From NCBI GenBank assembly GCA_024401335.1, contig JAKSLH010000003.1, positions 124,001 to 188,000 on the forward strand: a stretch of 64,000 nucleotides of DNA, written 5' to 3'. Positions 12,665 to 48,081 of the stretch are shown here, in pieces. The position numbers and the translations under genes were made by a program. Below the pieces are notes generated by a model that made no database searches, was not told the DNA's origin, and worked only from the letters and a program-made list of their open reading frames with translations. Source of the DNA: Bacteroidales bacterium. GTDB taxonomy: Bacteria; Bacteroidota; Bacteroidia; Bacteroidales; Marinilabiliaceae. Position 1 is the stretch's first letter. Each line of letters starts with the position of its first letter.

Positions 12665-13825
12665 TTAAAGAGCGTTGATACGGTCAACAGCCTCCTGTGA
12701 CTTGTCATACTTGCCAAGACGGTAGTAGATGCTCTTGATTGTCTCAAGACACTGCTTCTTGTTCTCAACTGTATCAGCGTTATCTGCTGCACTTTCCATA
12801 TATGGAAGTGACTTCTCGAAGATAGCATTTGCTTCCTTCATGATAGCCTCATACTTCTTCTGGTCACGCTCGTTGTTAGCGTCAGCTACACGCTCAACAC
12901 CCTTGTTGTAGTGTACTACAGCGAGGTTGTAGTATGCATTGAAGAGCTTGTCATCCTTAGCGATAGCAGTCTCATAGTCCTTGATAGCATCTTCCATGTT
13001 GATCTTCTCGTTGAGACAGCCACGAGCAAAATAGTAGCGAGCATTTGTTGGATCCTTTGCGATAGCCTCGTTAAGATAAGCTAAAGCCTCTTCGTTACGC
13101 TGCTCTGTGAGATAGTACTGAATAAGTGTTGTAAGAACGTCCTTGTTGTCTGGATACTTAACAAAACCCTTCTTCAAGTTTGCCTCTATACGATCTGCTG
13201 GAGCCTTGAGCTGCTGATAGCAGTAGTTAGCACGAAGAATTGACATAGGACCGTCGTAATCAACTTCAGCCGACTTCTCGAAGCATGTAGCTGCAGTCTC
13301 ATAGTCCTCTGCCTGCATAGCTGCGATAGCAGCGTTGTAAATAAGAACCGAGTCGTTTACCTCTTTGTAGTTTTCAGCATGGCTATTAGCCCAAACTGCA
13401 TTAAGGAACGCTGTCTTTGCACCACTGAAATTCTGGTCGTTAAAGCACTTAACACCATAATTTACAGAGTTATTAGAGAACTGAGTGTACTCCTTAGCGA
13501 TAGCCTTAGCTTCCTTGCCAGTCTTACCCTTCTTGTCTGGAATCTGGTCAAGTTCTACAGCCTTCTCAAGATACTGACGACCCTTTACTACACCCTCGTC
13601 ATCCTTGCCTTCAGCAGCAAGCTTGCTATATACACGTGATGCAACAAGGTATGTCTTAACAAGACCCTCTGTCTTAGGATTTACAAGAGCCTCATCAATA
13701 TCCTGCTTAGCGCGATCCATCTGACCAAGAATGCAAGCATTCTCAGCTGAATTCACCTTCGCCTTCTGAGCGAATGTTGCTGTTGCAAAAGACAATGCAG
13801 CAACACATAAAATTACTTTATTCAT
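12665..13825 (-). CDS. Exported tetratricopeptide-repeat protein
   Basis: A 386-residue protein with a signal peptide (about residues 1-19, ending FAQ) followed by successive TPR-like helical pairs, for example AALAYLNEAIAKDPTNARYYFARG, DAIKDYETAIAKDDKLFNAYYN and ESADNADTVENKKQCLETIKS. TPR proteins act as protein-binding scaffolds; no enzymatic motif is visible. It lies 22 bases downstream of gyrA on the same strand and has its own terminator. The periplasmic location is inferred from the signal peptide. The precise function is unknown. Confidence 0.85.
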   Translation of the reverse strand: MNKVILCVAALSFATATFAQKAKVNSAENACILGQMDRAKQDIDEALVNPKTEGLVKTYLVASRVYSKLAAEGKDDEGVVKGRQYLEKAVELDQIPDKKGKTGKEAKAIAKEYTQFSNNSVNYGVKCFNDQNFSGAKTAFLNAVWANSHAENYKEVNDSVLIYNAAIAAMQAEDYETAATCFEKSAEVDYDGPMSILRANYCYQQLKAPADRIEANLKKGFVKYPDNKDVLTTLIQYYLTEQRNEEALAYLNEAIAKDPTNARYYFARGCLNEKINMEDAIKDYETAIAKDDKLFNAYYNLAVVHYNKGVERVADANNERDQKKYEAIMKEANAIFEKSLPYMESAADNADTVENKKQCLETIKSIYYRLGKYDKSQEAVDRINAL

Positions 13826-13847
13826 AGTTAATTAATTACTGTTATTT

Positions 13848-16382
13848 TTATTCTTTTGATGTGTTCATTTCGTTATTTTCAGCATTATCATCCAATGGCT
13901 GATCCTCAGTCATCTCGCCATCAACTGCCTCATGTTCCTCTTCATCATCATGAGGTACAATAGTGCCCGATGCCAAAGCATCGTTGCGCTTAGTAAGGTT
14001 GATAAGCTTAACGCCCTGTGTAGCACGTCCAGTAACACGGATTTCGCTTGCTGCCAAACGGATTGTGATACCTGAACGAGTAATCAGCATGAGGTCGTCA
14101 TCGTCTGTCATCTTGTCTATAGCAATAACCGAGCCAGTTTTTTCAGTTATGCGGAAATTAAGCACACCCTTACCGCCTCTGTTTGTTATTCTATAGTCAT
14201 CAACAACAGATCTCTTGCCGAAGCCCTTCTCAGAAAGCACAAAGATATTCGACTCTTCTCCTTCCTCAAGACCGATAAAGCCAACTACTCTATCTTCTTC
14301 ACTATCAAGAGTTACGCCTCTTACACCTGCACCAGTTCTACCGATGCAACGTATGTTCGATTCATGGAATCTGTTTGCGCGACCATTGAGAGTTGCAAGC
14401 ATGAGATAATTATTTCCGTCTGTCAAGATAGCCTTGAGCAACTCATCACCATCCTTAACTGTGATTGCAATGATACCGTTCTGACGTGGACGAGAATAAT
14501 CTGTTAAGAGCGACTTCTTTATAACACCATTCTTTGTTGCCATTATGATGTAATGGCTGTTTGTATATTCTGGGTTATTAAGACCTCTTACTGTTATGAA
14601 TGCCTTAACCTGGTCTTCCTTCTCAATATTGAGCAGGTTCTGAATTGCACGACCCTTCGACTGCTTATTGCCCTCTGGAATGTCATATACCTTGTACCAG
14701 AAGCAACGGCCAAACTTAGTGAAGAACATCATTGTATCATGCATCTTAGCAAAATACATATGTTCTACAAAGTCCTGATCTCGTGTACCAGTACCCTTTG
14801 AACCCATGCCACCACGGCTCTGAGCCTTAAACTCGCTGAGAAGTGTACGCTTGATATATCCTACGTGACTTACTGTGATAACAACTTCATCATCAGCATA
14901 GAAGTCCTCTGGGTTGAATTCACCTGCCGAGTATTCAATCTGTGTACGACGCTCATCGCCATACTTCTCCTTGATCTCAAGAAGCTCCTCCTTGATCTTA
15001 TCCATCTGCATCTCTTCACTTGCGAGGAAACGCTCGAGGTAATCAATGAGTTCCTTCAACTTCTGATATTCATCACGCAACTTATTCTGCTCCAATCCTG
15101 TGAGCTGACGCAAACGCATCTCAACGATAGCATTGGCCTGCAGATCATCAAGATTGAAACGTGCCATGAGCTTCTGCTTTGCATCTTCTGTGCTTGAAGC
15201 GCTCTTTATTATCTGAACTACTTCATCAATGTTATCAGAAGCAATGATAAGACCTTCGAGGATATGAGCACGCTCCTCAGCCTTCTTCTTGTCATATTTT
15301 GCTCGGCGAACAACAACTTCATGACGGTGGTCAACGAAGCATGTGATGATATCCTTGAGGTTAAGGAGTTTTGGACGTCCATGAACCAAAGCGATATTAT
15401 TCACACAGAAGCTCGACTGGAGCGATGTGTTCTTATAAAGATGGTTGAGAACAACCTGAGGCATTGCATCATGACGGAGCTCAATAACGATACGTGTATT
15501 CATATCACTCTCGTCCTGTATGTTGCTTATACCCTCTATCTTCTTATCATTCACCATCTGAGCTATACGGCTCACCATCTCTGCACGGTTCACAAGATAT
15601 GGTATCTCTGTCACGATAATGCAATCGTGTCCATCTATCACCTCAAACTCACATTTCGCTCTGATTATAATACGACCCTTACCGGTAAGATAAGCATCCT
15701 TGACACCCTGATAACCGAAGATAGTACCACCAGTAGGAAAATCTGGAGCCTTGATATATGGGATAAGATCCTCAACCTCAATATCTTTGTTGTCAATATA
15801 CGCAACGATTGCATCAATTGAGTCAGAAAGGTTGTGAGGAGCCATGTTGGTAGCCATACCAACGGCAATACCCGATGAGCCATTTACCAAAAGGTTAGGT
15901 ATTCGTGTAGGAAGAACTGTTGGTTCATCTAGCGACTCATCAAAGTTCTTTGTCATGTCAACTGTATCCTTCTCGATATCAACCAACATGTCATCAGCCA
16001 TTCTTGTCATACGCGCCTCAGTATAACGCATAGCTGCAGGGCCATCACCATCTACCGAACCGAAGTTACCCTGTCCGTCAACAAGGCAATATCTGAGCGC
16101 CCATGGCTGAGCCATATGAACGAGCGCACCATAAACTGAAGAGTCTCCATGTGGATGGTACTTACCAAGCACCTCACCTACAATACGAGCCGACTTCTTG
16201 TGAGTCTGGTTGTAGTTGATGCCGAGCTTATCCATTCCAAAGAGGATTCGGCGATGTACAGGCTTGAATCCGTCACGAGCATCAGGAAGTGCACGACTTA
16301 CAATAACCGACATCGAGTAGTCGATATATGCAGTCTGCATCTGCTCCTCTATTCGGACGGGGATAATTCTTTCGTCTGCCAT
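13848..16382 (-). CDS. gyrA: DNA gyrase subunit A
   Basis: An 844-residue subunit that breaks and rejoins DNA in the gyrase A2B2 complex. The N-terminus [33 protein letters not shown] is canonical; the catalytic tyrosine lies in [10 protein letters not shown] near residue 120. A GyrA-box-like motif ([12 protein letters not shown]) and the six-bladed C-terminal wrapping domain with repeated VI.. and GVRGV..L units follow. The C-terminus ends in a long acidic tail, as is common in Bacteroidota. The quinolone-pocket segment reads [17 protein letters not shown]. The gene is intact. Confidence 0.98.
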
Positions 16383-34143: not shown

Positions 34144-34551
34144 ATGAGAGAAATAAACGAGATAATAATACACTGCACTGCAACGCCTGAAGGGCGTGAA
34201 GTGAGTGCAGACGAGATTCGCAGATGGCACAAGGCGAGAGGCGTCAACGTCATAGGCTATCACTACGTGATACACCTCGATGGACGTGTAGAGAATGGCC
34301 GGAACATTGAAGCCGTAGGTGCACACTGTGAAGGTCATAATGCCAACTCGATAGGAGTTGTGTATGTCGGTGGTCTGGCAAAAGATGGCAAGACACCCAA
34401 GGACACCAGGACAGCGAAACAGAAAGCTGCGTTGAAATGGTTGGTCGGTGGCTTAGTGGTTCACTTCGGTGCTTCGGTGCATGGGCATAATGAGTATAGT
34501 GACAAGGCTTGTCCGTGCTTCGATGTCGGGAGTGAGACTTGGGGTAAGTAG
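34144..34551 (+). CDS. Phage-type N-acetylmuramoyl-L-alanine amidase
   Basis: A 135-residue single-domain amidase_2/PGRP-fold enzyme that cuts the amide between MurNAc and L-Ala in peptidoglycan. Zinc ligands appear as the His of EIIIHCTATPEG, a His near HCEGHN and the Cys/His of the C-terminal HNEYSDKACPCFDVG; YHYVIHLDGRVENGR is typical of the family. No signal peptide, so release would need a holin, as in a phage lysis cassette. It is the only plus-strand gene in the island and has its own terminator. It is likely a prophage or conjugative-element remnant (endolysin). Confidence 0.9.
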   Translation: MREINEIIIHCTATPEGREVSADEIRRWHKARGVNVIGYHYVIHLDGRVENGRNIEAVGAHCEGHNANSIGVVYVGGLAKDGKTPKDTRTAKQKAALKWLVGGLVVHFGASVHGHNEYSDKACPCFDVGSETWGK

Positions 34552-34557
34552 AAAAGA

Positions 34558-34593
34558 AAACTCGGATCTGCGGTTTATGGCAGTTCCGAGTTT
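34558..34593 (+). terminator. Terminator after the amidase gene
   Basis: The outer arms aaactcgga / tccgagttt and an inner ctgc / gcag pair form one long hairpin followed by a T run on the plus strand. It begins 7 bases after the amidase stop and separates it from the convergent membrane-protein gene. Confidence 0.88.
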
Positions 34594-34617
34594 TTTTATT
34601 AGTGGGTTGAGGAAGTG

Positions 34618-35364
34618 TCATTTTAGTTTCTGTGGAATGCTACTGAAGTCTAACTTGGACAAAAAATGCAATACCACAATTATTAATCCTGCAATAAAAA
34701 AGGTATTAGCTATTTTGAGATAATCTTCTATTGTCATTGGCTTGGGGTCAAAAGCGATTATTCCCCAATATGTAAGATAATAATACAAAGCGCAACCAAA
34801 GTATATTGTCAAAATCAATACTTTTAAATAGTTAGAAAGACGCCTTAATCTTCTAATCTTTCTTTTGTGTTTATTATGCCAATCACTATTGTTGTCAATC
34901 AAAAATTTCCCATCAAGAACTTTACCTTCAATACTAATATTGGTCCCTGTATGATATATCAAAAAAACAGCGCCATCTTTGGGCTCTAAATGATCCAAAG
35001 TTATATTGCGATTAGGACTTAGCTTAATCTTATTGCTCTCATCAGTTATCTTGTCTATTCCAGCATCCAAAATAGAACCATTATCTATATTTTTAACAGA
35101 TAGGTGCTTCTCGACAAGATCACTATATCTAATTGTGTGTTTTCCATCGTTCCAAATAGTAACCTTTGAACAAAAAAGATTTTTTATTTCCTTGTCTTTA
35201 AAAGAAAGTTTCATTTGTTCATGAATAGGCACCCCACTCTTCAACAAAGGGTAAGTGCGAACAATGCATCTAAGCTTCTTTTTTCTTGCAAATTTATCGT
35301 ATAAGTACAAAAACAAAGCAACAATGGATGCTATAGAAGCTATTATTGACAAAATATTATTCAT
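34618..35364 (-). CDS. Small three-helix membrane protein, unknown
   Basis: 248 residues, no family recognised. An N-terminal transmembrane helix (about residues 3-24), a roughly 145-residue soluble middle with beta-rich text (LFCSKVTIWNDGKHTIRYSD, GAVFLIYHTGTNIS), then a basic stretch KHKRKIRRLRRL and two C-terminal helices (about 178-200 and 215-236). The sequence is clearly more AT-rich than the flanking core genes. It lies 93 bases downstream of brxL on the same strand, so it may be the last gene of the BREX transcript or an independent island passenger. A membrane effector is possible but not shown. Confidence 0.6.
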   Translation of the reverse strand: MNNILSIIASIASIVALFLYLYDKFARKKKLRCIVRTYPLLKSGVPIHEQMKLSFKDKEIKNLFCSKVTIWNDGKHTIRYSDLVEKHLSVKNIDNGSILDAGIDKITDESNKIKLSPNRNITLDHLEPKDGAVFLIYHTGTNISIEGKVLDGKFLIDNNSDWHNKHKRKIRRLRRLSNYLKVLILTIYFGCALYYYLTYWGIIAFDPKPMTIEDYLKIANTFFIAGLIIVVLHFLSKLDFSSIPQKLK

Positions 35365-35457: not shown

Positions 35458-36873
35458 TTACTTCATATATACCACAGGCATATCAGTTTTGTATTCAGGA
35501 TCTAGCAAATGAAGTTGTTCGCGGATTATCCCACGGCGGCGAATTGCGGGTTGCAAACAGAATGTGTCGAAGTCACTCTTGCTTACATCTTCTACCTTAG
35601 TCCAATGTGGAAACAAAAGCTTCATGTAGGCCGTCGCAATACGCTTGATAGCTGTAGAGTCTCGCATATCTGCCTTGCCTTCATAACATATAAGTTTATC
35701 GAAGAGTTCACCGTAAACATTCTGAACACGGAGATTATGCATAACTTCAGAGAAGTATTCCATGTTCATTGTCCAACCTTTGTAAATCATGTCCTTGTGG
35801 ATGCGAGGTAAATACCATCCCTCTATGAAACAATGGAATCTATCAAGCAGTGCTGATTCATTAAACGATGTTGGTAATTCCTTGAAATAGCATTTGTTAC
35901 GTGGTCTTCCATCTGTAATCTCAATGTTGCCCATTAATATTAGGCCACACTCCGATGTGAATTCCTTGTCTCCGATGGTTGCTTTTGCCTGTTCTAGGTA
36001 TGATTTCAAGGCGCCTTGTAACTCGTCTGGCTCTTGGAAAACAATTGTTTGTATTTCATCGAATCCACAAAAGTCATGAGTTTTCAATATGCCAGCTTGG
36101 TCCTTTGCACGGTCATAAAAAAGTTTTGCACGTGTCACCTTACCGCCACTTACAAGCCAACCATACTTACTGATGTTGTTGAAAACGTATGATTTGCCAG
36201 TCCCTTTGGGTGCAAGCTCAATAACATTGAGACGAGGTTCAACAAATATCAGCAAACGAGTTATGAATTCAAGTTTCTGATGCATACTATCAAATGAGTC
36301 CGGTTCATACTCCATAGAGGAGATAATGAGATCGAGCCATTCTTCAGTCGAAAAATTCTTTCTAACTTCCTGAATGAAACTTACATCGATTGTCGTATAT
36401 GGTTTAAATGGTTTGAAGTCGACCATTTCAACGTGACTCTTCTTCCCCTCATCATCAGGAAGAAGACACATCTTAATGATACCCCACATCTCACCATCAA
36501 CAAGTTCTGGATGCTTAGCTGCTACATAGTCAGGAATCTGTCCTTCACGTTCCTTTATTCCTAAATCTGGAATTCCAAATCTTCGTACATTATGTACTAG
36601 ATCGATGTTAACAGAAAAGCGAGTTAGCAAGGTGACTTCCTGTCCTGATATAAGTGAACTTCGAATGTCACCAGTAGGCATGACCGTATTGAGGAAACTT
36701 GTTAGAGCTGCACGGTCTATTTCCTCGCCTCTCGCAAATCGTTTCAATAAGTAATCCTTTACAAACGAAGGTAGATTCCGACCAGCAAAGAGGTTATTAG
36801 TTGTAGCGCTGTCCTTATAAAGAGACTGAGCTCCTAGATATGTTTTAACTTTGTTTACTATACTTTCATTCAT
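35458..36873 (-). CDS. brxL: BREX AAA+ protein BrxL, short form
   Basis: A 471-residue AAA+ ATPase matching the BrxL family. Walker A is APKGTGKSY (Lys about 227) in the context NVIELAPKGTGKSYVFNNIS; Walker B is the acidic pair in DFCGFDEIQTI (about 268-276). The next block (ECGLILMGNIEI, FNESALLDRFHCFIEGW) also follows the family. BrxL of type 1 BREX is about 680 residues with a Lon-like C-terminal domain; here the protein ends at 471 with VVYMK and I see no Lon protease region. It is last in the operon, 2 bases after pglZ. Known BrxL proteins bind DNA as hexamers and are needed for phage resistance. Confidence 0.88.
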   Translation of the reverse strand: MNESIVNKVKTYLGAQSLYKDSATTNNLFAGRNLPSFVKDYLLKRFARGEEIDRAALTSFLNTVMPTGDIRSSLISGQEVTLLTRFSVNIDLVHNVRRFGIPDLGIKEREGQIPDYVAAKHPELVDGEMWGIIKMCLLPDDEGKKSHVEMVDFKPFKPYTTIDVSFIQEVRKNFSTEEWLDLIISSMEYEPDSFDSMHQKLEFITRLLIFVEPRLNVIELAPKGTGKSYVFNNISKYGWLVSGGKVTRAKLFYDRAKDQAGILKTHDFCGFDEIQTIVFQEPDELQGALKSYLEQAKATIGDKEFTSECGLILMGNIEITDGRPRNKCYFKELPTSFNESALLDRFHCFIEGWYLPRIHKDMIYKGWTMNMEYFSEVMHNLRVQNVYGELFDKLICYEGKADMRDSTAIKRIATAYMKLLFPHWTKVEDVSKSDFDTFCLQPAIRRRGIIREQLHLLDPEYKTDMPVVYMK

Positions 36874-36875
36874 GA

Positions 36876-39284
36876 TTAAAATGCGAATAGGTCGTCTTCT
36901 TGAGCGGCCATTTTAATGTTTATAGTAAATGATTTTGTCTGAGTTCCGACATGTAGTGTCACAGTGGTCACATCCTTGTTGAGATTAAGACGATCGCTTG
37001 AATACGTCACTCCATGTTTTGCAAGACCATACATGTGGCCATCATATTCGAGCATAGGGAACGCTGAAACATTGCCATTTATGTTAATCTCTACAATTGG
37101 ATTGGCTTCGGCCACATCAAATGTCTTTAATGTAGCTTGCCATGAAGTAACCATCTTGTCTGGTGAGATAATAAGCACAGGAACAAGTTGTTCTTCTGGA
37201 GTACAACCACCATGACAACCCATACCATCAGGAACTTTCTTAAGCAATGATTCATGCTTTAAAGCACATAGTATTTTTTTTCTATCACTGTCTATGACAA
37301 TGTATTTGTCATCGTTGACAACTAATGTCTTTAAAGAAGTTTCAGCTATACGCCCCCAATGGTCAGAAGAATATCCACTTAGATTATGACCTTGACACAG
37401 TTGAGAGAGATATGAAATGCCATGATCTGAGATGATGGCAATCTTTTCACCAGGATGGTCAATAAGAATCTTGGTAATAACCTTTCTGACCTCTACCATA
37501 TCCTCGATTACATACTGAGGATATGGTCGAATTTTGTGGGCAGCTTCGTCAAGATCTCCAACTTTGTATAGGTTTTCGCCACCTAAATTCTGAATATTGA
37601 CTTTGTTTATGTCAGTACGAGAAGGCAGTTTGGCTGTAGCAATAAAGGCTTCGTTAAGATAGTAGCCATCTTGCTCGTGTTCCTTGACAATCTGTTGGAT
37701 GAATGGAATCCAGTCAACACCAAGTCCATCAATCCAATAATAACTACTTATGTCTGGGCGATTGTACAAAAGGGTGCGGGTATCGGAAAATTTCGAAGCC
37801 CACCCATGATGAGATAATTCGTTTTTATTTTTGTCTTCAATATACTGAGATATAGCATCCGTATATTTGTTGGATATTTTAGCTTCTTTGTAGCAGTCGA
37901 AATAGTCAAGAACCCAGGCTTCCTCTGATGATGCCATAGTTCTGCCGAGATAGTAATATAAATCTGGATATAGATTCAACAAGTCACTCTTTTGAATCTT
38001 ACCCTCACTATACCACTTTAATATAAGTTTTTTCTCTTCAAGAGTAAGCGATGATAGATATCTTATTGCTGATAGAATACCACTGTTACTCTCCTCTTCC
38101 TTAATTTTGTCTATTATGTATTGTTGAACTTCTGTTGGCAGTTCAAGCCCATTTTGGGCTGCCATTTGCATACCTATTCGTCGTTCGGCAATGTGCTCTT
38201 CTGGGTTGTCTAACTTGAATATGGTAATTGCAAGTTCCTTAACGAAAGCGACATCAGAATAACTATTGAGATTTTCTAGTACACGACAAATATACCCCTG
38301 ATTGCAAAACTTACTAGTATAATATTTGGCGAGAAGCCATCGCATGTATGGATTCTTATTCTTGAACCATGTCTCGAAGAATATATTATAGTCAGCAAGA
38401 TTAAATATACCAAACTGAGCATTAAAGAAAGAATCAAACTTAAAGTCTGTAATATCAATTCGTTGAGCAAGTTGTTCCCAATAGTTGCTTTCTTCTTCTC
38501 GATATTCTATGCTGGATAGATCAAGCTGTAATCCTTTAGTCAAAAACTCATAGGCGTTATTACACACACAATAACTAAAAGCGTTATCTGGTTGTGCATA
38601 CTTGGCATGAGCAAAAATTGCAGGGGAAGTCGAAATGATGTTGGATTGCAACTGAGGGAACTGCCAAAAGCTAAGCCACTGAGAAACATTTTCGGCAACA
38701 TTGTATTTCGAATCGAGCCCGCGAACTCCAAATGTTGACTTGTTTGTCAAAATAAGGCGATAGTCAAGTTGACGGTCATCATTATGGAAATACCAAATAA
38801 ACGATTGAGAATCGTCTTTGAAATGTTCCATTTTGCCTTGAAGTCCGACAATTGGAATATATACACGTTGTTGTTTCTCAAATCCAGTTCTTGATGTGTC
38901 AAAACTCTTAATGGTATTAATAAGCGAATTGAACTCTGCTTTTTCAGGAGAGTTGTTGTAGAAACGAGCAAGTTCTGAGAATGGCATAATTACCCGATAT
39001 TCAGATGGAGTCTTTGTAATAACTTCCCGAATATCATCTGCCAAACGCTTATGGGTAAGCATTGTGTCTGGGTAATCGACGTCCATCCAATTCTCTAAAC
39101 GTTCGATGTCCATGTGCGGAATGTGCATTAAATCTTCGACAAATCTACAGCAATCACGGAAATTGTCGAATAGCACAAACCTCACTGGGAATCTATTGGC
39201 CGTACTTGCACCTGCGCCAACAATGTGACGGTCGGAGTCAAGCCTGTCTTTTAATTCTTCGTATGTATTAAACTGCTCGTACAT
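36876..39284 (-). CDS. pglZ: BREX alkaline-phosphatase-fold protein PglZ
   Basis: 802 residues. The PglZ core is of the alkaline-phosphatase superfamily. The nucleophile-region motif WIDGLG is around residue 518 and the metal-binding motif IISDHGISYL around 617-626; a further conserved His appears in GCHGGCTPEEQLVP near residue 700. The first roughly 500 residues are helical and variable, as usual. PglZ is the family-defining gene of BREX; purified homologues act as metal-dependent phosphodiesterases or nucleases. It is separated from brxC by only 3 bases. The C-terminal beta region (INGNVSAFPML) may bind a partner. Confidence 0.88.
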   Translation of the reverse strand: MYEQFNTYEELKDRLDSDRHIVGAGASTANRFPVRFVLFDNFRDCCRFVEDLMHIPHMDIERLENWMDVDYPDTMLTHKRLADDIREVITKTPSEYRVIMPFSELARFYNNSPEKAEFNSLINTIKSFDTSRTGFEKQQRVYIPIVGLQGKMEHFKDDSQSFIWYFHNDDRQLDYRLILTNKSTFGVRGLDSKYNVAENVSQWLSFWQFPQLQSNIISTSPAIFAHAKYAQPDNAFSYCVCNNAYEFLTKGLQLDLSSIEYREEESNYWEQLAQRIDITDFKFDSFFNAQFGIFNLADYNIFFETWFKNKNPYMRWLLAKYYTSKFCNQGYICRVLENLNSYSDVAFVKELAITIFKLDNPEEHIAERRIGMQMAAQNGLELPTEVQQYIIDKIKEEESNSGILSAIRYLSSLTLEEKKLILKWYSEGKIQKSDLLNLYPDLYYYLGRTMASSEEAWVLDYFDCYKEAKISNKYTDAISQYIEDKNKNELSHHGWASKFSDTRTLLYNRPDISSYYWIDGLGVDWIPFIQQIVKEHEQDGYYLNEAFIATAKLPSRTDINKVNIQNLGGENLYKVGDLDEAAHKIRPYPQYVIEDMVEVRKVITKILIDHPGEKIAIISDHGISYLSQLCQGHNLSGYSSDHWGRIAETSLKTLVVNDDKYIVIDSDRKKILCALKHESLLKKVPDGMGCHGGCTPEEQLVPVLIISPDKMVTSWQATLKTFDVAEANPIVEININGNVSAFPMLEYDGHMYGLAKHGVTYSSDRLNLNKDVTTVTLHVGTQTKSFTINIKMAAQEDDLFAF

Positions 39285-39287
39285 AGA

Positions 39288-42200
39288 CTACTTTTTTAGT
39301 ATTGCATCGAGAATTGTGATATTATCAAGATCACACAGTGTCTCTAACAACCTTTTTGCTTCTTGAATTGTACCTATCTTTTTGATTCGTTCACGAGCAC
39401 TATCTTTCTTTTGTGCTATTATGTTGTTTTCTGTCTCAACCGTCTCTATTTTTTCATTGTTATCATGATTGTCATCATTCCTATTTTCATTCTCAGGTTC
39501 AGGGACAGGCTTCGAAGTGGCAATCCTCCAATTTTTTAACTGCTCGATGACAGCCGCTTCTTTCCATAATCCAGCTTCTAACTCCATGTGTCGCCTGATG
39601 TACTCAACAGCATCGTTGTAATCATTATCTGAGAGATTGACTATTTCGTCAGCCAAAAGGAAGTTGTGAAAACCGTTCTCAAAATAATTCTCTGTTTTAT
39701 CAAGAAGAGTCGCATATTCATACTTCACTTCTGTAAGTAGACTATCAGTTTCTGATAGAAGGGCTGGATTTTTCGTACCGATCTCTTCACAAATTGCTAT
39801 GATATTGTCAGTCAACTTGCAAATTTTATCCTTGCATTTAATACTTTGGAGTTTATCAGAATGTTTAAGTGTCCATAAAGGATATCCTACTTCTTTACAA
39901 TATGCTCTGCGTAAAGCCCAACGAGTGTCTGTTAGACTTGAAACATCCTTGTAATCCTTAAGTTCATTAAGTTTGAAAAGAGAAATTAGTCCCTTCGCAA
40001 TAGAGCCTTCTTCCTTGGTTTCGAACTTAACATCAACCTTATGGTTGTTACCGCTACCTCCATTTTCCCATATCTTGAAAGTATCGGCAACAAGTTCTAG
40101 CATTCGCTGAGCATTGATAGGCTTTCCGTTGGTGTCGAATACCTTATCAACATAAGGTTTCAGAGCGAAAGACACCAAGCCATAACCCGAATGCGAAGGG
40201 AAAAGGCCGTAAGGTGCTTTCGTTAGATCTCGAAGTTTATCAGCAAGGTTGAAGTTTGTTGTCTTATCGGAGTGCTCAATTTTTGATTTAACAAATTGGA
40301 ATACAACATAAAGAGGGTGTGTTTTGTCTATGTCTGATTTAAAATTGAGATTGTCATCAACACTGTCTTGAAGAAGAAGTGACATGTGCTTGGCTGGACC
40401 AGTACAGCGTGATGAAATTTCATCCTTGGTATTAAACGAAAGGACATTATCTGCAGTACCTCTAGAGTGTTGCTTAACCCAATATGTCTGAGTATTACCA
40501 AGCCTAATTATATCACACGACTCAGGGCCTTTGCTGAAAATGCGAGGTGCTATAGTCGTATTTATTGTAACAGGTAATTGTCTTACAGATAGTGTAGAAC
40601 AATCATTTTGGATGTATAAAGTACATGTGTTTGCCTTCATGTTCTTCACCCAGTCAGAAATGATGGCTTTAGCATTGTCTGTATGAGATTTTGTTTGGTC
40701 AGCGAATCCATGTTGGTTGGCGCACAAGGCATTTGCTTGATATTCTATAAATCTGTCGAAATCTTGACTGCCTAGTTGCGCATCAAAAACTAGGAAAGCA
40801 ACATTCTTGAACCGATCATCAGCGGACGCTTTTGTCGCGATAGCCTTCAATGATGCAAGTTCGTTATTAGTTCTAGCCATCATCAAAGCCATAAAGACCT
40901 CGTAATCCGCTGCTTGAGACAATCCATTCTCTACCTTATTCAACAAGGTGTGTTCATTTGTGTCTTCGGAATAAAAATCGAATTTATATGGTCTGTTAAC
41001 ACCCTTGAAGAGTTTGTCAAATTCTTTTTGAGCGGAATCTCCATAATGAAGAATTTGAGATGTATATTTAAAATCGTTACTCAACAGTTTTGCCTTGAGA
41101 GTTTCAATCTCCTTTGTGTCGAGGGCTGAAAAACGAATTTCATAAATACCTTGAGGTGAACGTTGAACGACACTCTCATCGTTTATCCATGATAGGATAT
41201 CATCCATCTCTGCATCTATAGGAGTGCCTACGTACATATTCCGTATGTTCTCTTCACTAGGAGTAACGGTTTCGTGGTTTGCTATATTGTTGAGGGCATT
41301 TAGCAACAAGATAGATTTAAACACAGCTAAATGTTTTTCGCTCTTGTTCGCCACATGCAGTCTATATGAGTTGAATCGTTCTGTGACTATGCCATATTTT
41401 GTGACTTTGCTATTAAACTCATCAAGAACAAAATCCCACAGATAATCACTAGTAATCATATCTGCGTTAGCAAATTTTTGTTCGTTGTCAAGGAATTCTC
41501 TAATAGCAGGGTTACTACCTAAGAATTCAAATACACTTCGAGACGACGAACCAGCTTCACGTGCATAGTATGTCGCCAAATTAGCTGTTGATGGATGTAC
41601 CGGGAATAATTGCTTAAGGTCGTTGACTGTTTCTGATGGATTGTTAGAAGTGGATGCATACTTCTCATAGACCTCACGCATCTGAGCAAAGTATTTATCG
41701 GTCATCCCATGATAAGCCTTAAAAGCTTCTGTGCTCTCATCCTGTTCGTGAATGAACTTACGAGACATGATTTTAAATGCACTGACAGGCTCCATGTTAT
41801 ATTTCATGAAGCGATATCGACCCATTGTTTTTGTTCTGTCTTCTGCCTTAAGATTATCGAGGGCAGACGGATGGGCAATATGGAAGAAATATGAATTATT
41901 CTTCATATCCATCGTTCCTTCTGCAAGCTTCTGTAAGTCGACAAGAAGAGATAGTACGATATCAGATGTCATCACGTCGGTAAACTCATCCCAAATCAGT
42001 AATATACCACTGTACTCTGTAGTTCTTGCGAGTTCGTCTTGGACTTCAAAAAACCATTTACAAAGATTCTCTTGCTCAAGACGGACATGAAGACCAGAGT
42101 TTCGAAGAGCATTCTTCATAAGGGTGAGAACTGATGAATCGTATACCTTTAGATCCTTAATGAGTTTATTTCTATCTGGGGCATAAGACTGAAGCTCTGC

Positions 42201-42737
42201 ATCGTTTAAGATGATATTATCCCAAATTGCAGGTTGACTCTCTATGTGAGATACAAAATTGTCAAAATCAGTTTTGACAGTTACATTTATATTGGCTTTT
42301 TCAAGAGCCGAATGAACATGACTTTGGATCTGAAGCGAAAGATCGTCACTGTGAGCCATAGAACATTGTCCATACATAGTAACTGGCAAAAGACGAACAT
42401 TACTTCTTAGAGACAAAAGCGACTGTCTAAGTATATCATATTTGCTTGCTCCATATTCATCCTTTAGATAATCGGTTATGTCTTCAACTGGGTCGCAAAG
42501 CAAATGTTTGATTACTGCTGCAGCATGGCTCTTGCCTGTACCATATGTGCCTTCAATCCAAAACGACCGATGTTCGTCAACAGATTTTTTGCTAACAGAA
42601 CTAACTACGGTTTGAAGTATGGAATTAAACTGCTCATTTGGAATAAAGTTTTTCCATTCTCCATCACTTTCAGTCTCTATGTTGTATGCCGATTTCGTTT
42701 CGCGAATCTTTATTGCATCAGAATATTTTGTAGCCAT
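39288..42737 (-). CDS. brxC: BREX large P-loop ATPase BrxC
   Basis: A 1,149-residue ATPase of the BrxC/PglY type. Walker A is GTYGTGKS at residues 63-70, immediately after SFWIE, the position usual for this family. A Walker-B-like LLIWDEFTDVM occurs near residue 245. The text then runs through a helical region with no other known domain and ends in a charged, coiled-coil-like tail (PEPENENRNDDNHDNNEKIE then RERIKKIGTIQEAKRLLETL). BrxC is thought to be the motor or switch of BREX. It follows the small gene by 11 bases and precedes pglZ by 3. Confidence 0.88.
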   Translation of the reverse strand: MATKYSDAIKIRETKSAYNIETESDGEWKNFIPNEQFNSILQTVVSSVSKKSVDEHRSFWIEGTYGTGKSHAAAVIKHLLCDPVEDITDYLKDEYGASKYDILRQSLLSLRSNVRLLPVTMYGQCSMAHSDDLSLQIQSHVHSALEKANINVTVKTDFDNFVSHIESQPAIWDNIILNDAELQSYAPDRNKLIKDLKVYDSSVLTLMKNALRNSGLHVRLEQENLCKWFFEVQDELARTTEYSGILLIWDEFTDVMTSDIVLSLLVDLQKLAEGTMDMKNNSYFFHIAHPSALDNLKAEDRTKTMGRYRFMKYNMEPVSAFKIMSRKFIHEQDESTEAFKAYHGMTDKYFAQMREVYEKYASTSNNPSETVNDLKQLFPVHPSTANLATYYAREAGSSSRSVFEFLGSNPAIREFLDNEQKFANADMITSDYLWDFVLDEFNSKVTKYGIVTERFNSYRLHVANKSEKHLAVFKSILLLNALNNIANHETVTPSEENIRNMYVGTPIDAEMDDILSWINDESVVQRSPQGIYEIRFSALDTKEIETLKAKLLSNDFKYTSQILHYGDSAQKEFDKLFKGVNRPYKFDFYSEDTNEHTLLNKVENGLSQAADYEVFMALMMARTNNELASLKAIATKASADDRFKNVAFLVFDAQLGSQDFDRFIEYQANALCANQHGFADQTKSHTDNAKAIISDWVKNMKANTCTLYIQNDCSTLSVRQLPVTINTTIAPRIFSKGPESCDIIRLGNTQTYWVKQHSRGTADNVLSFNTKDEISSRCTGPAKHMSLLLQDSVDDNLNFKSDIDKTHPLYVVFQFVKSKIEHSDKTTNFNLADKLRDLTKAPYGLFPSHSGYGLVSFALKPYVDKVFDTNGKPINAQRMLELVADTFKIWENGGSGNNHKVDVKFETKEEGSIAKGLISLFKLNELKDYKDVSSLTDTRWALRRAYCKEVGYPLWTLKHSDKLQSIKCKDKICKLTDNIIAICEEIGTKNPALLSETDSLLTEVKYEYATLLDKTENYFENGFHNFLLADEIVNLSDNDYNDAVEYIRRHMELEAGLWKEAAVIEQLKNWRIATSKPVPEPENENRNDDNHDNNEKIETVETENNIIAQKKDSARERIKKIGTIQEAKRLLETLCDLDNITILDAILKK

Positions 42738-42748
42738 AATTCAAGATT

Positions 42749-43174
42749 TTATAACATATAGAATTTAGTAATAGATTCAGTATAATCATTTCTCAATGAC
42801 TCGTCCTGTAACAGATCCCAAAGAGCATTGTCTAAAGAAATACTCTTTATATTCTCACGCACAAACTTGTCATTAGAGACCTTTATAAAAGCATGGCCAT
42901 TAACCCAATTGATATGATAAAAACTTTCACTTCCCATATGGTATATAGGGTAACAAAATGGTGTGCTAACTGAATATTTCTCCTTTAGCTCATCGTACGT
43001 GATGCGTAAATCTTCTAGTTTGAAAATGTTATTAGATACCTTGCCATTATCCACCATCTTTATAATTGACAACAGGAGTGTAGGCTTGGCCAAATTAACC
43101 ATGCCTTTACTCTTTTGACATTTCATAGAGCGTAGAACATCTCTATACATAGAAATTAGCAAAGCATTCTCCAT
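42749..43174 (-). CDS. Small SBD-like (phosphorothioate-binding-domain-like) protein of the BREX operon
   Basis: 141 residues, no signal peptide or membrane helix. The order of conserved text resembles the N-terminal sulfur-binding domain (SBD) of restriction enzymes that recognise phosphorothioate DNA: AKPTLLLSIIKMVDNGKV (residues 29-46; family pattern KP.LLLa.i..i..G), then LRITYDELKEKY, then FCYPIYHMGSESFYHINW (73-90; family PF..L...gfW.l), and NALWDLLQDESLRNDYTESI at the end (family LfelLqD...R..L...li..yf). No HNH nuclease half is present. It lies between brxP and brxC with gaps of 1 and 11 bases. The match is from memory of the family, not a search. Confidence 0.55.
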   Translation of the reverse strand: MENALLISMYRDVLRSMKCQKSKGMVNLAKPTLLLSIIKMVDNGKVSNNIFKLEDLRITYDELKEKYSVSTPFCYPIYHMGSESFYHINWVNGHAFIKVSNDKFVRENIKSISLDNALWDLLQDESLRNDYTESITKFYML

Positions 43175-43175
43175 T

Positions 43176-45743
43176 TTAAAATAGTTTATTTAAAACTTGT
43201 ATAGGCGTTAATCCTTCTTGCAGTGTAATATGATTAAGACCCATATTTAATTCAGCAATAAGAATTCTATCTTTATCTGAATTTAATTGACGTAACGATT
43301 TTTCGAATTTTTCTTTTGAAAGGCAGAACTCTCTTGCGACGCCATTCTGACAGTCTTCTTCGTAAAAATCCTTAACGCGTAGTTGCGTGGTCTCATTTTT
43401 TTCTGCGAATTTGTATAACGAATAGGCAACAGCGATATCCGATATGTCATCATACTCGTTACGGACAAGACTCTTCTTGTCAAACGATTCTCCTTGCCTC
43501 AACGTTTCTCCTATTGGCGAATATGTAAAGCACTGCAAAAGTGCACCGAAAGCATATTCTATAGTCGATCTGCTAAATTGTAAGGAAAAATAATCGAAAG
43601 ATGATTCTATGAGAAAACGTTTATCAAACGGTGTTTTCTCCTTTACATTGTTAATAAACCATTTTGCCAGTTCTGAATTGTATCCTACATTAATCCAAAT
43701 CAAAGACCAAATTAAATCTGGATCGTTTACTAAGTTGTTTACGCAGAACTCACCAAATTCAGTTAATACATTTTTTGAATCTATAATTTCCGCATCCTTA
43801 AGCCATGCCTTAAAGCTTGGCACCTGCTTGTTTCCAAGAGAACTTTGGCCATCTAGCCAAAAAGAAACCTGCGGATCTCCAAAGAATTCAGAAACCCATT
43901 CCTCATGTATTCCAAATGTTCCATATTTGGAAATATTGCCGACATTTTTCTTGTTTTCCATACTTGTAACTAATGAATCTGCCACAATGCATCCGTGGTC
44001 ATGAAACTCTAGGCATTTATGGCAATGTATGCATTTCGATTTATCTATTTGAACCTTTGGAAGCACTGATAATGCTCCAGTCGGACACTCTACCTCACAT
44101 ACTTCGCAGCTTACACAATAAACCGCCTTATACAATACTCTCTTTATTTGCTTGACTAGCATAATGTCAGAAACTGCATTGTACAGAGTAAACGTGTAGT
44201 TATTAGTATCCTTATAGTTTATCTCGAAGGTAAATATCTTATTGTTGAATTTTAGCTCACCTTTTTTTATTTTATCATCGCCCGAAACCTCGTAGTCACA
44301 AACTGCAGTCAACCAAATGTTTATATCAACCTTAGAATTGGAAACCAACGCAACTAGATTAGGGTTGGTCTTTACAAAATCAACGGAAGACTTTTGTGAT
44401 ACAAGATTGCCACTGGCTCTAAGTTTCCATTTCCTTTCTTTTATGTACTCTTCAAAATTAGGTATCTTGCGTTCTCTTGCTTGATTTTCGACTTTTGTCA
44501 GGAAGGGAGACAATTCGTTTTTGTAGCAATTATTGACAACCATGTCATCCCAAGGAGATGAGAATGGACAAAATATGCAACCTACACGAGGTTTGCCCAC
44601 TCGATATGCCTCATTGATAGGAAGATTATATTTAAGCAAATACAAGAATATCTCAGTCGTATTCCACCTTAGGATAGGCCTAGCATTGGTGACAAAAGAG
44701 TGTTTTACTCCCTTGCCTATTCGTTCATAAACAGAACGCTTTGCACTTTCTTCTGATCGTACACCCTCAAACGCTAAAACTTTTGCTTGCTTGTTCGTCT
44801 CAGGTTCCTTTAGCATTCTGTACAATGGTGCTGTTTTCATTACCGAACAACACCAACGATGTTTATCACTAGGCGAACCTATTTTATCCCAATAATTCAA
44901 AACAGTCTCGTGATTTTTAGCGAGGCTAAATTTGAGTGTAGGGAACAAATTGTGATAGTATTTCTGAACATCTTTGTATAGATTGAGTGACGATGGAAGT
45001 TCATAACCTGTATCAGAATATATAACTTGAAACGCATCTGGGGGCAGCGCACGAGTACATAGGTCAAGGACAACCTGACTGTCTTTGCCTCCTGAAAATG
45101 ATGCTAAGAAATAATCAACTTTAGTGGTTTGAAGCACTTTCTTGCCTTGCTTCTCGGCTTCTATAAGAGGCATAATGTCGAAGCTGTCGCAGTCTTCTTT
45201 TACTATAGCCATCTTCTGCTTGGCTTTCTTCTCCTGTTTGGCTACAAGAGAATCAAAATCAACAGCATTCGCTGCATGTTTTTTGCTCATCTTGTTGGCC
45301 TTGCTATATGTATCGAAAGTATCGCGAATGAACTCAATTGCCTCACTTTCGCAAAGGAACATAAACTCCTTTGTTTTCTCCAACATGGCATGAACATCAA
45401 TAGGGGTTAGCGTCAGTTTCTCTTTGCCTGGCTGAAACACAATAGTTGCCTTATCGTAAATGTTTGCACCTTTGGCTTCAAATGCAAAATCACCACGATA
45501 GTAGTATTCTTTATTGATGGCCCACATCAGTGGTTCTTGGCATTCAGGGTATTGCCAACCGAGAGTATTAAGTCCTAAAAGATTTAGTTCTTCAGAAAAT
45601 ACAGGACGAGGAGAGATACTAAGTGTATCTTTCGTAACCAGTGAAGATAATAAAACTCCTCCTGTCTCCTTATCCCATGATATCTTGTGCATTAGTAGTC
45701 TATGCGAGTCTTTTTTGTTTCGGCGCCAGACTTCCAATGGCAT
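43176..45743 (-). CDS. brxP: BREX type-4 PAPS-reductase-like protein BrxP (PP-loop, Fe-S, DUF4007-like)
   Basis: 855 residues. An N-terminal region of about 200 residues is followed by a PAPS-reductase/PP-loop domain: SFSGGKDS at 215-222, YSDTGYELP, and a Cys-Cys pair (298-299, WCCSVMK) with CIFCPF (389-394), the CC...CxxC pattern that ligates a 4Fe-4S cluster in APS reductase and resembles DndC. A ferredoxin-like stretch follows with CVSCEVCEVECP (543-554) and CIHCHKC (571-577). The C-terminal third (from about 608) contains FWLDGQSSLGNKQVPSFKAWLKDA and a second WSLIWINVGYNSELAKWF block that fit DUF4007. DndC-type enzymes move sulfur to DNA; whether this one does is inference. Confidence 0.88.
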   Translation of the reverse strand: MPLEVWRRNKKDSHRLLMHKISWDKETGGVLLSSLVTKDTLSISPRPVFSEELNLLGLNTLGWQYPECQEPLMWAINKEYYYRGDFAFEAKGANIYDKATIVFQPGKEKLTLTPIDVHAMLEKTKEFMFLCESEAIEFIRDTFDTYSKANKMSKKHAANAVDFDSLVAKQEKKAKQKMAIVKEDCDSFDIMPLIEAEKQGKKVLQTTKVDYFLASFSGGKDSQVVLDLCTRALPPDAFQVIYSDTGYELPSSLNLYKDVQKYYHNLFPTLKFSLAKNHETVLNYWDKIGSPSDKHRWCCSVMKTAPLYRMLKEPETNKQAKVLAFEGVRSEESAKRSVYERIGKGVKHSFVTNARPILRWNTTEIFLYLLKYNLPINEAYRVGKPRVGCIFCPFSSPWDDMVVNNCYKNELSPFLTKVENQARERKIPNFEEYIKERKWKLRASGNLVSQKSSVDFVKTNPNLVALVSNSKVDINIWLTAVCDYEVSGDDKIKKGELKFNNKIFTFEINYKDTNNYTFTLYNAVSDIMLVKQIKRVLYKAVYCVSCEVCEVECPTGALSVLPKVQIDKSKCIHCHKCLEFHDHGCIVADSLVTSMENKKNVGNISKYGTFGIHEEWVSEFFGDPQVSFWLDGQSSLGNKQVPSFKAWLKDAEIIDSKNVLTEFGEFCVNNLVNDPDLIWSLIWINVGYNSELAKWFINNVKEKTPFDKRFLIESSFDYFSLQFSRSTIEYAFGALLQCFTYSPIGETLRQGESFDKKSLVRNEYDDISDIAVAYSLYKFAEKNETTQLRVKDFYEEDCQNGVAREFCLSKEKFEKSLRQLNSDKDRILIAELNMGLNHITLQEGLTPIQVLNKLF

Positions 45744-46258: not shown

Positions 46259-46855
46259 TTATTTACTCTTCAGTTCTTCTATTGCTTTATACACATTGGT
46301 GTATGACTGATTTTCTTGCATGCCTATCTCCTTGGCACGAGTGATGGCATCATTTTGTTTCTCATCACCGGTCATCTGTATGACCCAATCTGGCTTGGAA
46401 AGAAAACGTTCATGTTTTTCATAGTTACGAATATAGCTAGACAACTCCCTTTCTGCCTCTTTGCTTGTCGTGAAAAATTTAGCAGTCTTTCTGAAATGCA
46501 AAAGGAACCAATATTCTATCGAAGGCAAACTGTCACATATAAGGACATCAGGCTTGTTGCCATATTTACGCTTGAGTTCTTCAAGTTTTTTCTTCTCAGC
46601 AGCATCCCAATTCGTGACATCAGCATCAAATATGCAGATGGCACGTCCACCTTCGTCGAGCACTTGCCTAATACGCTGTTCGATATAGTATATGTTTTCA
46701 TTGCCGAAAAAACGTGGACGTATTTTCAGGCGATATCCAAACAAATTCTTGAGATGCTCGAAATAGTACTGTTCGGTTATTCCCGCTCCAATGATAGTCG
46801 GGATTGCCTCAAGGGTGTTTTTCGTGTTGGTATTACGTACATTCTTCCTTGCCAT
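46259..46855 (-). CDS. RloB-like Toprim protein (AbiLii/RloB)
   Basis: 198 residues, no signal peptide. It follows the RloB pattern, a compact Toprim-like fold: GAGITEQYYFEHL near residue 22 (the acidic residue after TE), CIFDADVTNW near residue 97 (the Asp-x-Asp pair), and the RloB hallmark SLPSIEYWFLLHF near residue 128. Toprim-type RloB/AbiLii proteins are nuclease-like effectors in abortive-infection pairs with an ATPase. It lies 8 bases after the ATPase gene, the usual order. The catalytic acidic residues appear intact; nuclease activity is inferred from the fold family. Confidence 0.85.
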   Translation of the reverse strand: MARKNVRNTNTKNTLEAIPTIIGAGITEQYYFEHLKNLFGYRLKIRPRFFGNENIYYIEQRIRQVLDEGGRAICIFDADVTNWDAAEKKKLEELKRKYGNKPDVLICDSLPSIEYWFLLHFRKTAKFFTTSKEAERELSSYIRNYEKHERFLSKPDWVIQMTGDEKQNDAITRAKEIGMQENQSYTNVYKAIEELKSK

Positions 46856-46863
46856 AACTCTTG

Positions 46864-48081
46864 CTATTTGATATTAGGCAATGCTCCGAAACGTCCATTG
46901 CGATATGCCTTTTGAATAGACGCCAACTTGTTGAGACCACGGAACTCAACCAGAGAGAAAAGAGAAGAATGGCCCGTCTCGTCTTTCTCTGTAAACCAGA
47001 CACTATCCTTACGGATGAGATCATCGGTTGTGTTAAGCAATGGATCGTAATGAGATGTGATGAGCATCTGCGAATGATTGTCAGTCTCACGAAGAAACTT
47101 TTCGATTATGAACTCAACCAACGACGGGTGTAGCGACGCCTCTATCTCATCAATCATAAGGAATGCCTGCTGCTTAATGGCAGTATAAACCGCGGCCTCT
47201 ATGCCAAATGTCCTCTTAGTACCATCTGATTGATCACTCTCCTGCATCGTGTACTTTTCCTCACCACGCGCATTACGCACAGTATGCTCAAAGAGTGTTT
47301 CCCAAGTGTCAATGGACTTTGTACTGGCATACTCTGACACCTTATTGCTTCGCAATCCTGTTATATTAAAGTCTGCGCGATGGATAAAATCCAAAAGATA
47401 TGTCTTGGCTGCATCATCCTTGCGCATCATATTGTTTGCATAGTCAAACATGTGAGTAGCAGGCGATATGACTGGAAGGTATGAATTGCGCATCCATTCG
47501 CGAGCCTCATCAATTTGAGGTATTGAAATATTGACCTGATTGCGAGCTGCAAAAAAAGACATATTTGACAAGCACTTGAGGGAAATTTCCTCTTGTGCTG
47601 CTGCGCTTATCTTGACAACCTTAGTGTTGAATGACAGAACAGACTGGCTATTTTCTAGTTTGCGCTCAAACAACAAAGTAGGTTGAACGCTATTATATAT
47701 GAACAGTCTTTCTTTAAGAACTGTCTTGGAAGTCAACTTGAGCTGGTACCAATATCTGACTTCACCAACAAAAAACTTTAGACTAAAATCTGTTGGTTCG
47801 TTAGGAGTGTTAGCATCAAGGCGGAAAGGAATCGCACCTGTTGGCTCATCTATGTCATCGGCCTTGTTGAACCAAAAGCTGTTGAGGAATTCAAACGCAC
47901 GTAACAAGTTGGACTTGCCAGAAGCATTAGCGCCATATACCATTGCGAAACGCAAAAGGCGAGTCTTGCCAATTGTTACGACTTGATAAGCTTCGTTTAT
48001 AGTGTCCTTGGTGGCTTCAAAACTGAATGTTATTTCATCACGGAAGGAAAGATAATTCCTTACCTTCAATTCCTGTATCAT
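46864..48081 (-). CDS. AAA/ABC-type ATPase (AbiLi/RloA-like)
   Basis: 405 residues of the AAA_15/AAA_21 class, relatives of SMC/OLD-type ATPases. Walker A is VYGANASGKSNLL near residue 49; the N-terminus (RNYLSFRDEITFSFEA) is the usual recF-like opening. The signature and Walker B regions are SDGTKRTFGIEAAVYTAI and QQAFLMIDEIEASLHPSLVEFII, followed by the D-loop/H-loop text QMLITSHYDPLL. Such ATPases act as sensors for the RloB effector. The pair is coded on one transcript with a TATATTTG box about 23 bases before the start. Confidence 0.88.
   Translation of the reverse strand: MIQELKVRNYLSFRDEITFSFEATKDTINEAYQVVTIGKTRLLRFAMVYGANASGKSNLLRAFEFLNSFWFNKADDIDEPTGAIPFRLDANTPNEPTDFSLKFFVGEVRYWYQLKLTSKTVLKERLFIYNSVQPTLLFERKLENSQSVLSFNTKVVKISAAAQEEISLKCLSNMSFFAARNQVNISIPQIDEAREWMRNSYLPVISPATHMFDYANNMMRKDDAAKTYLLDFIHRADFNITGLRSNKVSEYASTKSIDTWETLFEHTVRNARGEEKYTMQESDQSDGTKRTFGIEAAVYTAIKQQAFLMIDEIEASLHPSLVEFIIEKFLRETDNHSQMLITSHYDPLLNTTDDLIRKDSVWFTEKDETGHSSLFSLVEFRGLNKLASIQKAYRNGRFGALPNIK

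Follow-up and report, generated by a model that had tools for sequence, protein, structure and literature searches.

A stand-alone sulfur-binding domain (SBD) is encoded between brxP and brxC of a BREX type 4 operon, and on balance we favour the view that this gene supplies an optional, nuclease-free subunit with which the system reads phosphorothioate (PT) marks. The operon lies in a stretch of 64,000 nucleotides from a Bacteroidales bacterium, hereafter the window. BREX type 4 marks DNA with sulfur, not methyl groups, and no PT reader is named in those portions of the literature that were covered. A recurrent reader-like subunit, together with natural pairs of operons with and without it, makes the question of how BREX discriminates self from non-self directly testable.

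The operon and its additional gene

An earlier note on this DNA had described a lone SBD-like gene at 42749-43174. The region is, on the minus strand, an open reading frame of 141 aa with an ATG start, in which the motifs KPTLLL, GKV, CYPIYHM, YHINW and LWDLLQD are all found, and the coordinates and motifs quoted in that note were thus confirmed. The gene lies 1 bp past brxP and 11 bp ahead of brxC, in the order brxP-SBD-brxC-pglZ-brxL:

43176..45743, minus strand: brxP, 855 aa as listed; PADLOC BrxP, E 5.6e-276
42749..43174, minus strand: lone SBD-like gene, 141 aa; pocket-equivalent residues Ala29, Lys30, Tyr75, Pro76 and His79
39288..42737, minus strand: brxC, 1149 aa, BrxC/PglY ATPase; PADLOC BrxC, E 0; SspC models match too
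36876..39284, minus strand: pglZ, BREX type 4 form, 802 aa; NF033445, E 1.5e-197
35458..36873, minus strand: brxL, 471 aa; family match

The presence together of brxP, brxC, a type 4 pglZ and brxL identifies the operon as BREX type 4. BrxP is made up of a PAPS reductase, a 4Fe-4S ferredoxin-like region and a DUF4007-like C-terminus (E 8e-5, below the Pfam cut-off). Since the alignment of its relatives begins at Met18 of the listed frame, the true start of brxP is probably at 45692.

Upstream of brxP, at 46259-48081 on the minus strand, an RloB-like gene and an AAA_21 ATPase gene were found (best PADLOC matches AbiLii and AbiLi), a pair that is likely to be a second defence module. After brxL, at 34250-35364 on the same strand, there are two open reading frames, 248 and 123 aa long, that no family model matched above threshold, and the 248-aa frame has no relative among the genes that follow brxL at other loci.

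Homology of the 141-aa protein to the SBD

When the single window sequence was compared with the PDB by phmmer, one credible match was obtained, to SBDHga1 (8h0l, E 8e-4, residues 21-137). A 43-row family profile matched 8h0l at E 1.8e-26, and when 42 lone rows were compared by hhalign with 11 SBD-HNH proteins the probability was 99.9 (E 6.9e-31). These E-values rule out a chance resemblance. Judged from profiles, the protein is clearly an SBD homologue, as the earlier note had supposed, and an SBD fold is predicted for it on the same evidence; no solved SBD besides 8h0l was matched in these searches. The nuclease half, which the note had taken to be missing, is indeed absent: the SBD alignment spans nearly all of the 141 aa, no HNH or other nuclease domain is present, and no Pfam, PADLOC or NCBIfam model matched the window protein at the limits used. 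With a limit of E 1, 25 of the 43 family members matched the model NF045808 (PT-DNA_restrict, PT-DNA-binding restriction endonuclease), the best at 1.9e-9, but the window protein was not one of them; three members scanned one by one reached 17-26 bits, where the curated cut-off is 180. When the lone relatives were scanned, no Pfam family recurred consistently (none in more than 3 of 43 members; best E 1e-3), PADLOC gave none, and the best PHROGs match (E 0.0025) was to a family that 6 of 42 members matched.

A search of 395 genomes of the phylum with the window protein gave matches in 11, its own included, the other ten at 25-31% identity. Eight of those ten (L002-L005, L007-L009 and L011, whose reading frames were read) are N-terminal parts of HNH endonuclease-like proteins, three of which match NF045808 over nearly the whole model. 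Plasmid matches to the window protein were four records, all annotated as HNH endonuclease, and those to a relative (L067) nine, seven annotated as HNH endonuclease and two as hypothetical protein.

Recurrence of the gene in brxP loci

Loci were collected by a scan with a BrxP alignment, one genome per species, in which the best 80 of 148 relatives were used; with five IMG/VR contigs and one contig from a phage collection this gave 86 loci, the window locus being extra. The SBD gene lies between brxP and brxC, on the same strand, in 47 of the 86, is lacking in 36 and could not be decided in three; because the loci kept were those nearest the query, mostly with Bacteroidales titles, this carrier fraction is valid for such BREX-4 operons only. 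The association with a DndC/SspD-like PAPS reductase (BrxP) in a BREX operon, on which the earlier note had relied, therefore holds well outside the window, and an oddity of one genome is ruled out. Among the carriers 44 genes are complete, one is cut at a contig end (L060) and two are broken, by an in-frame stop (L084) or a frameshift (L091); at L060 and L125, both counted as carriers, the contig stops before brxC. The median spacing is 1 bp from brxP to the SBD gene and 12 bp from there to brxC. In 34 of the 36 non-carrier loci the gap between brxP and brxC is -4 to 133 bp, and in the other two a Schlafen/AlbA_2 gene (L095:12518-13915) or a Fic gene (L109:6577-7308) occupies the interval; at L120 an ATPase-like gene (13032-14258) follows the SBD gene. 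The brxP-brxC interval thus seems to be an insertion point.

The single window sequence matched nothing at E 0.001 in 60 other genomes, of which 14 belong to the same genus. When 393 genomes of the order were sampled evenly, six had BrxP at E 1e-60 or better: two carry the SBD gene (the window and G533), three are without it at that place (G538, G526 and G052) and one is a fragment. The lengths of BrxC, compared by eye, gave no pattern by which a longer BrxC would compensate for a missing SBD. Two loci are unusual in other respects. At L093:10004-12942 (a Leyella lascolaii record) brxP is interrupted, with a break in the frame followed by several hundred extra bases. L042 (MT835963.1), filed as 'Bacteriophage sp.', holds a BREX-4 operon with brxC in two frames and, by eye, a mobilisation-like open reading frame, and is probably of bacterial or mobile-element origin. 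A viral scan with the SBD alignment found one relative, on the contig of L125.

SBDs elsewhere in the genomes

If the SBD were supplied in trans, genomes with BREX-4 lacking the gene should encode it elsewhere. In 31 of 32 such genomes (the 36 non-carrier loci less four IMG/VR records) no SBD match was found at E 0.001, which speaks against this possibility, although many of them are metagenome bins and maybe incomplete. All 34 carrier genomes searched, representing 34 of the 47 loci, gave a match, and in 32 of them the lone SBD was the only one. Systems at 36 of 83 decidable loci thus do without the gene, and 31 of the 32 such genomes searched show no SBD elsewhere, so that these systems cannot depend on it. 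The lone SBD is an optional component of BREX-4 operons.

The exception, G827 (the genome of L081), encodes a 273-aa protein with a C-terminal SBD of the His-Lys type directly after brxL on another contig (L187:5520-6341). The brxC piece of that contig is 23% identical to brxC of the window and that of the first contig 46%, over regions that overlap, so that the second contig apparently holds a second, diverged BREX operon. The 273-aa protein offers a second way of adding an SBD to BREX.

Across the 393-genome sample 16 genomes matched the SBD search. Two matches are the lone SBDs in BREX-4 (the window and G533), two are lone Ala-type SBDs without adjoining BREX (G529 and G709), one is a lone His-type SBD (G603), two are helicase fusions, four are of HNH type, and five are fragments or broken copies, including those of G039 and of G052, which has its BREX-4 without an SBD gene on another contig. 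DndC gave no match in G529, G709, G603 or G039, and BrxP gave short weak matches in two of these four (E 5e-5 and 5e-4) and no full BrxP. The occurrence of lone SBDs outside BREX-4 (G529, G709 and G603) counts against their being readers for BREX-4. The orphan Ala-type genes are at L147:2662-3186, which adjoins Fic and integrase genes, and L148:9487-9975. The helicase fusions (L151:5687-7972 and L152:1927-3954) join an SBD with a His-Lys pocket to an SF2 helicase of ResIII type, the family scan having been made on L151. At L186:4524-6781 a 560-aa AbiH-like protein has an SBD at its C-terminus, and next comes a lone SBD of the His-Lys type, 146 aa long.

Among genes that follow brxL, a 176-aa family was found with the SBD at 7 of 7 loci, a 488-aa family at 9 of 9 and an AlbA_2/Schlafen family at 1 of 5. 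The link of these families with the SBD was not significant, there being too few independent pairs on the tree. The first family (176-179 aa; L044:10713-11243, L053:20279-20812 and five more loci) was scanned in three members, one of which resembled GIY-YIG weakly (E 0.006, below the cut-off).

Co-evolution with the operon

On a BrxP tree of 48 rows with the SBD and 35 without, the window included, 17 changes of presence were counted, at least 11 of them forced by well-supported branches; shuffled labels required 27 on average. The tree is of a quick kind without bootstrap, joins one pair of long branches (L114 and L121), leaves out L113 (short BrxP) and has no state for L107, L115 and L116. 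For 35 loci, which remained after near-copies were removed from the 39 with full SBD, BrxP and BrxC, the Pearson correlations of distances were 0.65 (SBD-BrxP), 0.68 (SBD-BrxC) and 0.65 (BrxP-BrxC), against maxima of 0.20-0.31 after shuffling; the Spearman values were 0.39, 0.43 and 0.50 respectively. Alignments A4 and A5 omit the near-copies L048, L069 and L074 and the incomplete L060, L084 and L091, and A5 also omits L042. Because SBD distances follow those of BrxP and BrxC, vertical descent together with the operon, with several losses, would be favoured over repeated capture from outside. In alignments of seven carrier/non-carrier pairs, some of them poor, the SBD formed one block between the end of brxP and the start of brxC wherever both flanks could be placed.

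The SBD gene is under purifying selection in the relatives. Of 14 pairs tried, five were saturated, the window's own two among them; in eight of the nine with measurable dS, dN/dS was 0.07-0.17, with five near saturation (dS 1.8-2.3), and in the ninth it was 0.50 at a dS of only 0.02.

Position and co-evolution also bear on a different role, in which the SBD would be a specificity or maintenance factor on the side of the writer: it would bind a DNA motif or post-replication hemi-PT sites, bring BrxP-BrxC there and tune the place or density of PT, with no part in restriction. The gene separates the two writer genes, is not next to pglZ or brxL, and co-evolves about equally with BrxP and BrxC, as such a factor might. 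However, we know of no SBD shown to choose its targets without PT, and 34 of the 36 loci lacking the gene keep brxP and brxC within the short distances given above; because they are so close together without it, PT writing should not need the lone SBD. Binding of hemi-PT DNA by ScoMcrA and by its SBD, described in the part of PMC6224610 consulted, would suit such a factor. Altogether we regard a writer-side role as unlikely, and the reading of the lone SBD as a PT reader is preferred.

The putative sulfur-binding pocket

In PMC6224610, the sulfur contacts of ScoMcrA are H116, R117, Y164, P165 and A168; the changes R117K and A168H still bind, and H116I loses 94%. The SBDSpr pocket consists of Y31, Q32, Y78, P79 and A82, and two Y-to-A changes almost abolish binding (PMC7470945, likewise in part). 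The equivalents in the window protein, from alignment and spacing, are A29, K30, Y75, P76 and H79, the correspondence with ScoMcrA and SBDSpr numbering being drawn from motif and spacing in these two papers, not from sequence alignment. The residues of the two tolerated changes, R117K and A168H, are those of the window pocket.

Conservation was examined in 47 lone rows, which include the window copy, G533 and a second, opposite-strand SBD of L084. Lys30 (the R117 position) and Pro76 (the P165 position) are kept in all 47 and in all 11 HNH-fused rows, and Trp119 and Arg128 are likewise invariant in the lone rows. At the position of His116 (ScoMcrA) or Tyr31 (SBDSpr), 46 of the 47 lone rows have Ala, Ala29 of the window included, whereas the HNH-fused rows have His (nine) or Tyr (two). 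The position of Tyr75 is variable (Lys in 24 and Tyr in 11 of the 47). The pocket to which the earlier note appealed is therefore there in part, with its Lys and Pro kept and its His replaced. With Lys and Pro invariant and Ala for His/Tyr, part of the pocket would be under strict selection and the family would have its own signature elsewhere; judging by these alignments, the lone SBDs with the Ala-Lys-Pro pocket form a distinct subfamily.

Ala29 is the strongest point against PT binding and the main doubt. Because Ala sits where the Y-to-A and H116I changes cost binding (PMC7470945, PMC6224610), the affinity for PT may be weak or gone. The protein could then be a sulfur-blind winged-helix protein derived from an SBD, with a dead pocket, that serves the BREX complex as a plain DNA-binding or scaffolding subunit; the near-abolition of SBDSpr binding by Y-to-A changes, set against Ala in 46 of 47 rows, would agree with this, as would the argument in PMC10853773, seen in part, that the SBD is a wHTH domain. 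But a dead pocket does not require the invariance of Lys30 and Pro76, and the gene is associated with an operon that writes PT, whereas below 3.6% of SBD-HNH nucleases are linked with dnd writers (PMC7461809, part of the text). Loss of sulfur recognition therefore appears improbable to us, and PT binding by the lone SBD likely.

The window copy itself departs from three of 19 near-invariant family columns, and in the four nearest relatives the SBD is 37-39% identical to it although BrxP reaches 75-76%. Given this low SBD identity despite similar BrxP and the three changed columns, the copy may have diverged or been weakened.

A proposed reader of the operon's own mark

BREX type 4 writes PT, according to PMC11931770 and PMC12839542. 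BrxP and BrxC, as homologues of Ssp writer proteins, would write the marks, and the lone SBD would contact the PT linkage, with Pro76 as the floor of the cavity and Lys30 supplying positive charge. Having no catalytic half, it would have to act through partners, of which the BrxC-centred complex, whose genes adjoin the SBD gene, is the most plausible; this partnership is a conjecture. The protein may report whether DNA bears host marks, so keeping PglZ and BrxL off self DNA or gating them, and may also guide the re-marking of hemi-modified sites. A PT reader reporting to the BrxC complex is proposed because a nuclease-free SBD is tied to a PT writer, because in SspABCD-SspE a PT reader encoded with the writer gates immunity (PMC9646914), and because PMC12839542 pictures BrxC as a scaffold that evaluates modification status, both sources being covered in part. 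That the protein could instead be a shield or decoy, acting outside BREX restriction to cover the host's PT marks against PT-dependent nucleases of the SBD-HNH type IV kind, whether invading or co-resident, would fit its homology to the reading domain of the attackers, its lack of a nuclease and, as a response to local threat, its patchy presence, but is very improbable in view of its co-evolution with BrxC and BrxP, its tight packing in the operon and the absence of a second SBD match from 32 of 34 carrier genomes searched.

Reading of the operon's own mark is thus the best inference, and self-recognition is quite possibly its purpose. More tentatively still, the Ala-Lys-Pro proteins may be an unnamed stand-alone SBD subfamily that serves BREX type 4 as a self-recognition PT reader encoded with the writer, whose weak binding would be tuned for release and which the ancestor of these mostly Bacteroidales operons would already have had, with several losses since, so that BREX-4 would exist in reader-assisted and reader-free forms.

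Comparison with known systems

The four core genes of BREX type 4 (brxPCZL) are all in the window operon, in the order known for that type, with a further gene between brxP and brxC. The main text of the BREX survey PMC12839542 contains neither 'SBD' nor 'sulfur-binding', and no such part is listed in the sections covered. The survey does report, near BREX, HNH nucleases whose N-terminus is a wHTH, and for type 4 it mentions a small zinc-finger protein; in the naming of an earlier paper by one of its authors, also covered in part, the wHTH of those nucleases is the SBD. Among the papers listed on BREX with PT or SBD no SBD subunit of BREX was recognised, an earlier mention in Yuan et al. (BREX-4 PT) being possible. 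The terms SBD and BREX occur together in PMC9646914 and in two versions of one other paper, where, in the part of PMC11090510 covered, 'SBD' stands for the substrate-binding domain of Hsp70.

With the SBD of PT-dependent type IV restriction enzymes (ScoMcrA, SprMcrA, SBDHga1 of 8h0l, EcoWI; NF045808) the window protein is homologous over nearly the whole domain and has the pocket Lys and Pro in common. It differs in having no HNH or SRA half and in having Ala, not His or Tyr, in the pocket. The lone SBD is encoded within an operon that writes PT, whereas linkage of SBD-HNH genes with dnd writers is rare (PMC7461809, as far as covered), which is as expected because such nucleases would attack the host. 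The IscS-DndBCDE-DndI system, with a Dnd-type writer, is likewise titled a phosphorothioation-sensing defence system, the likeness being one of title. With SspE, the PT reader and nickase of SspABCD-SspE, the proposed logic is shared, in that a PT-sensing protein is encoded with the PT writer; SspE senses PT through a hydrophobic patch on the NTPase domain at its N-terminus and has a nuclease, in which the lone SBD of about 145 aa differs from it (PMC9646914, in the part consulted).
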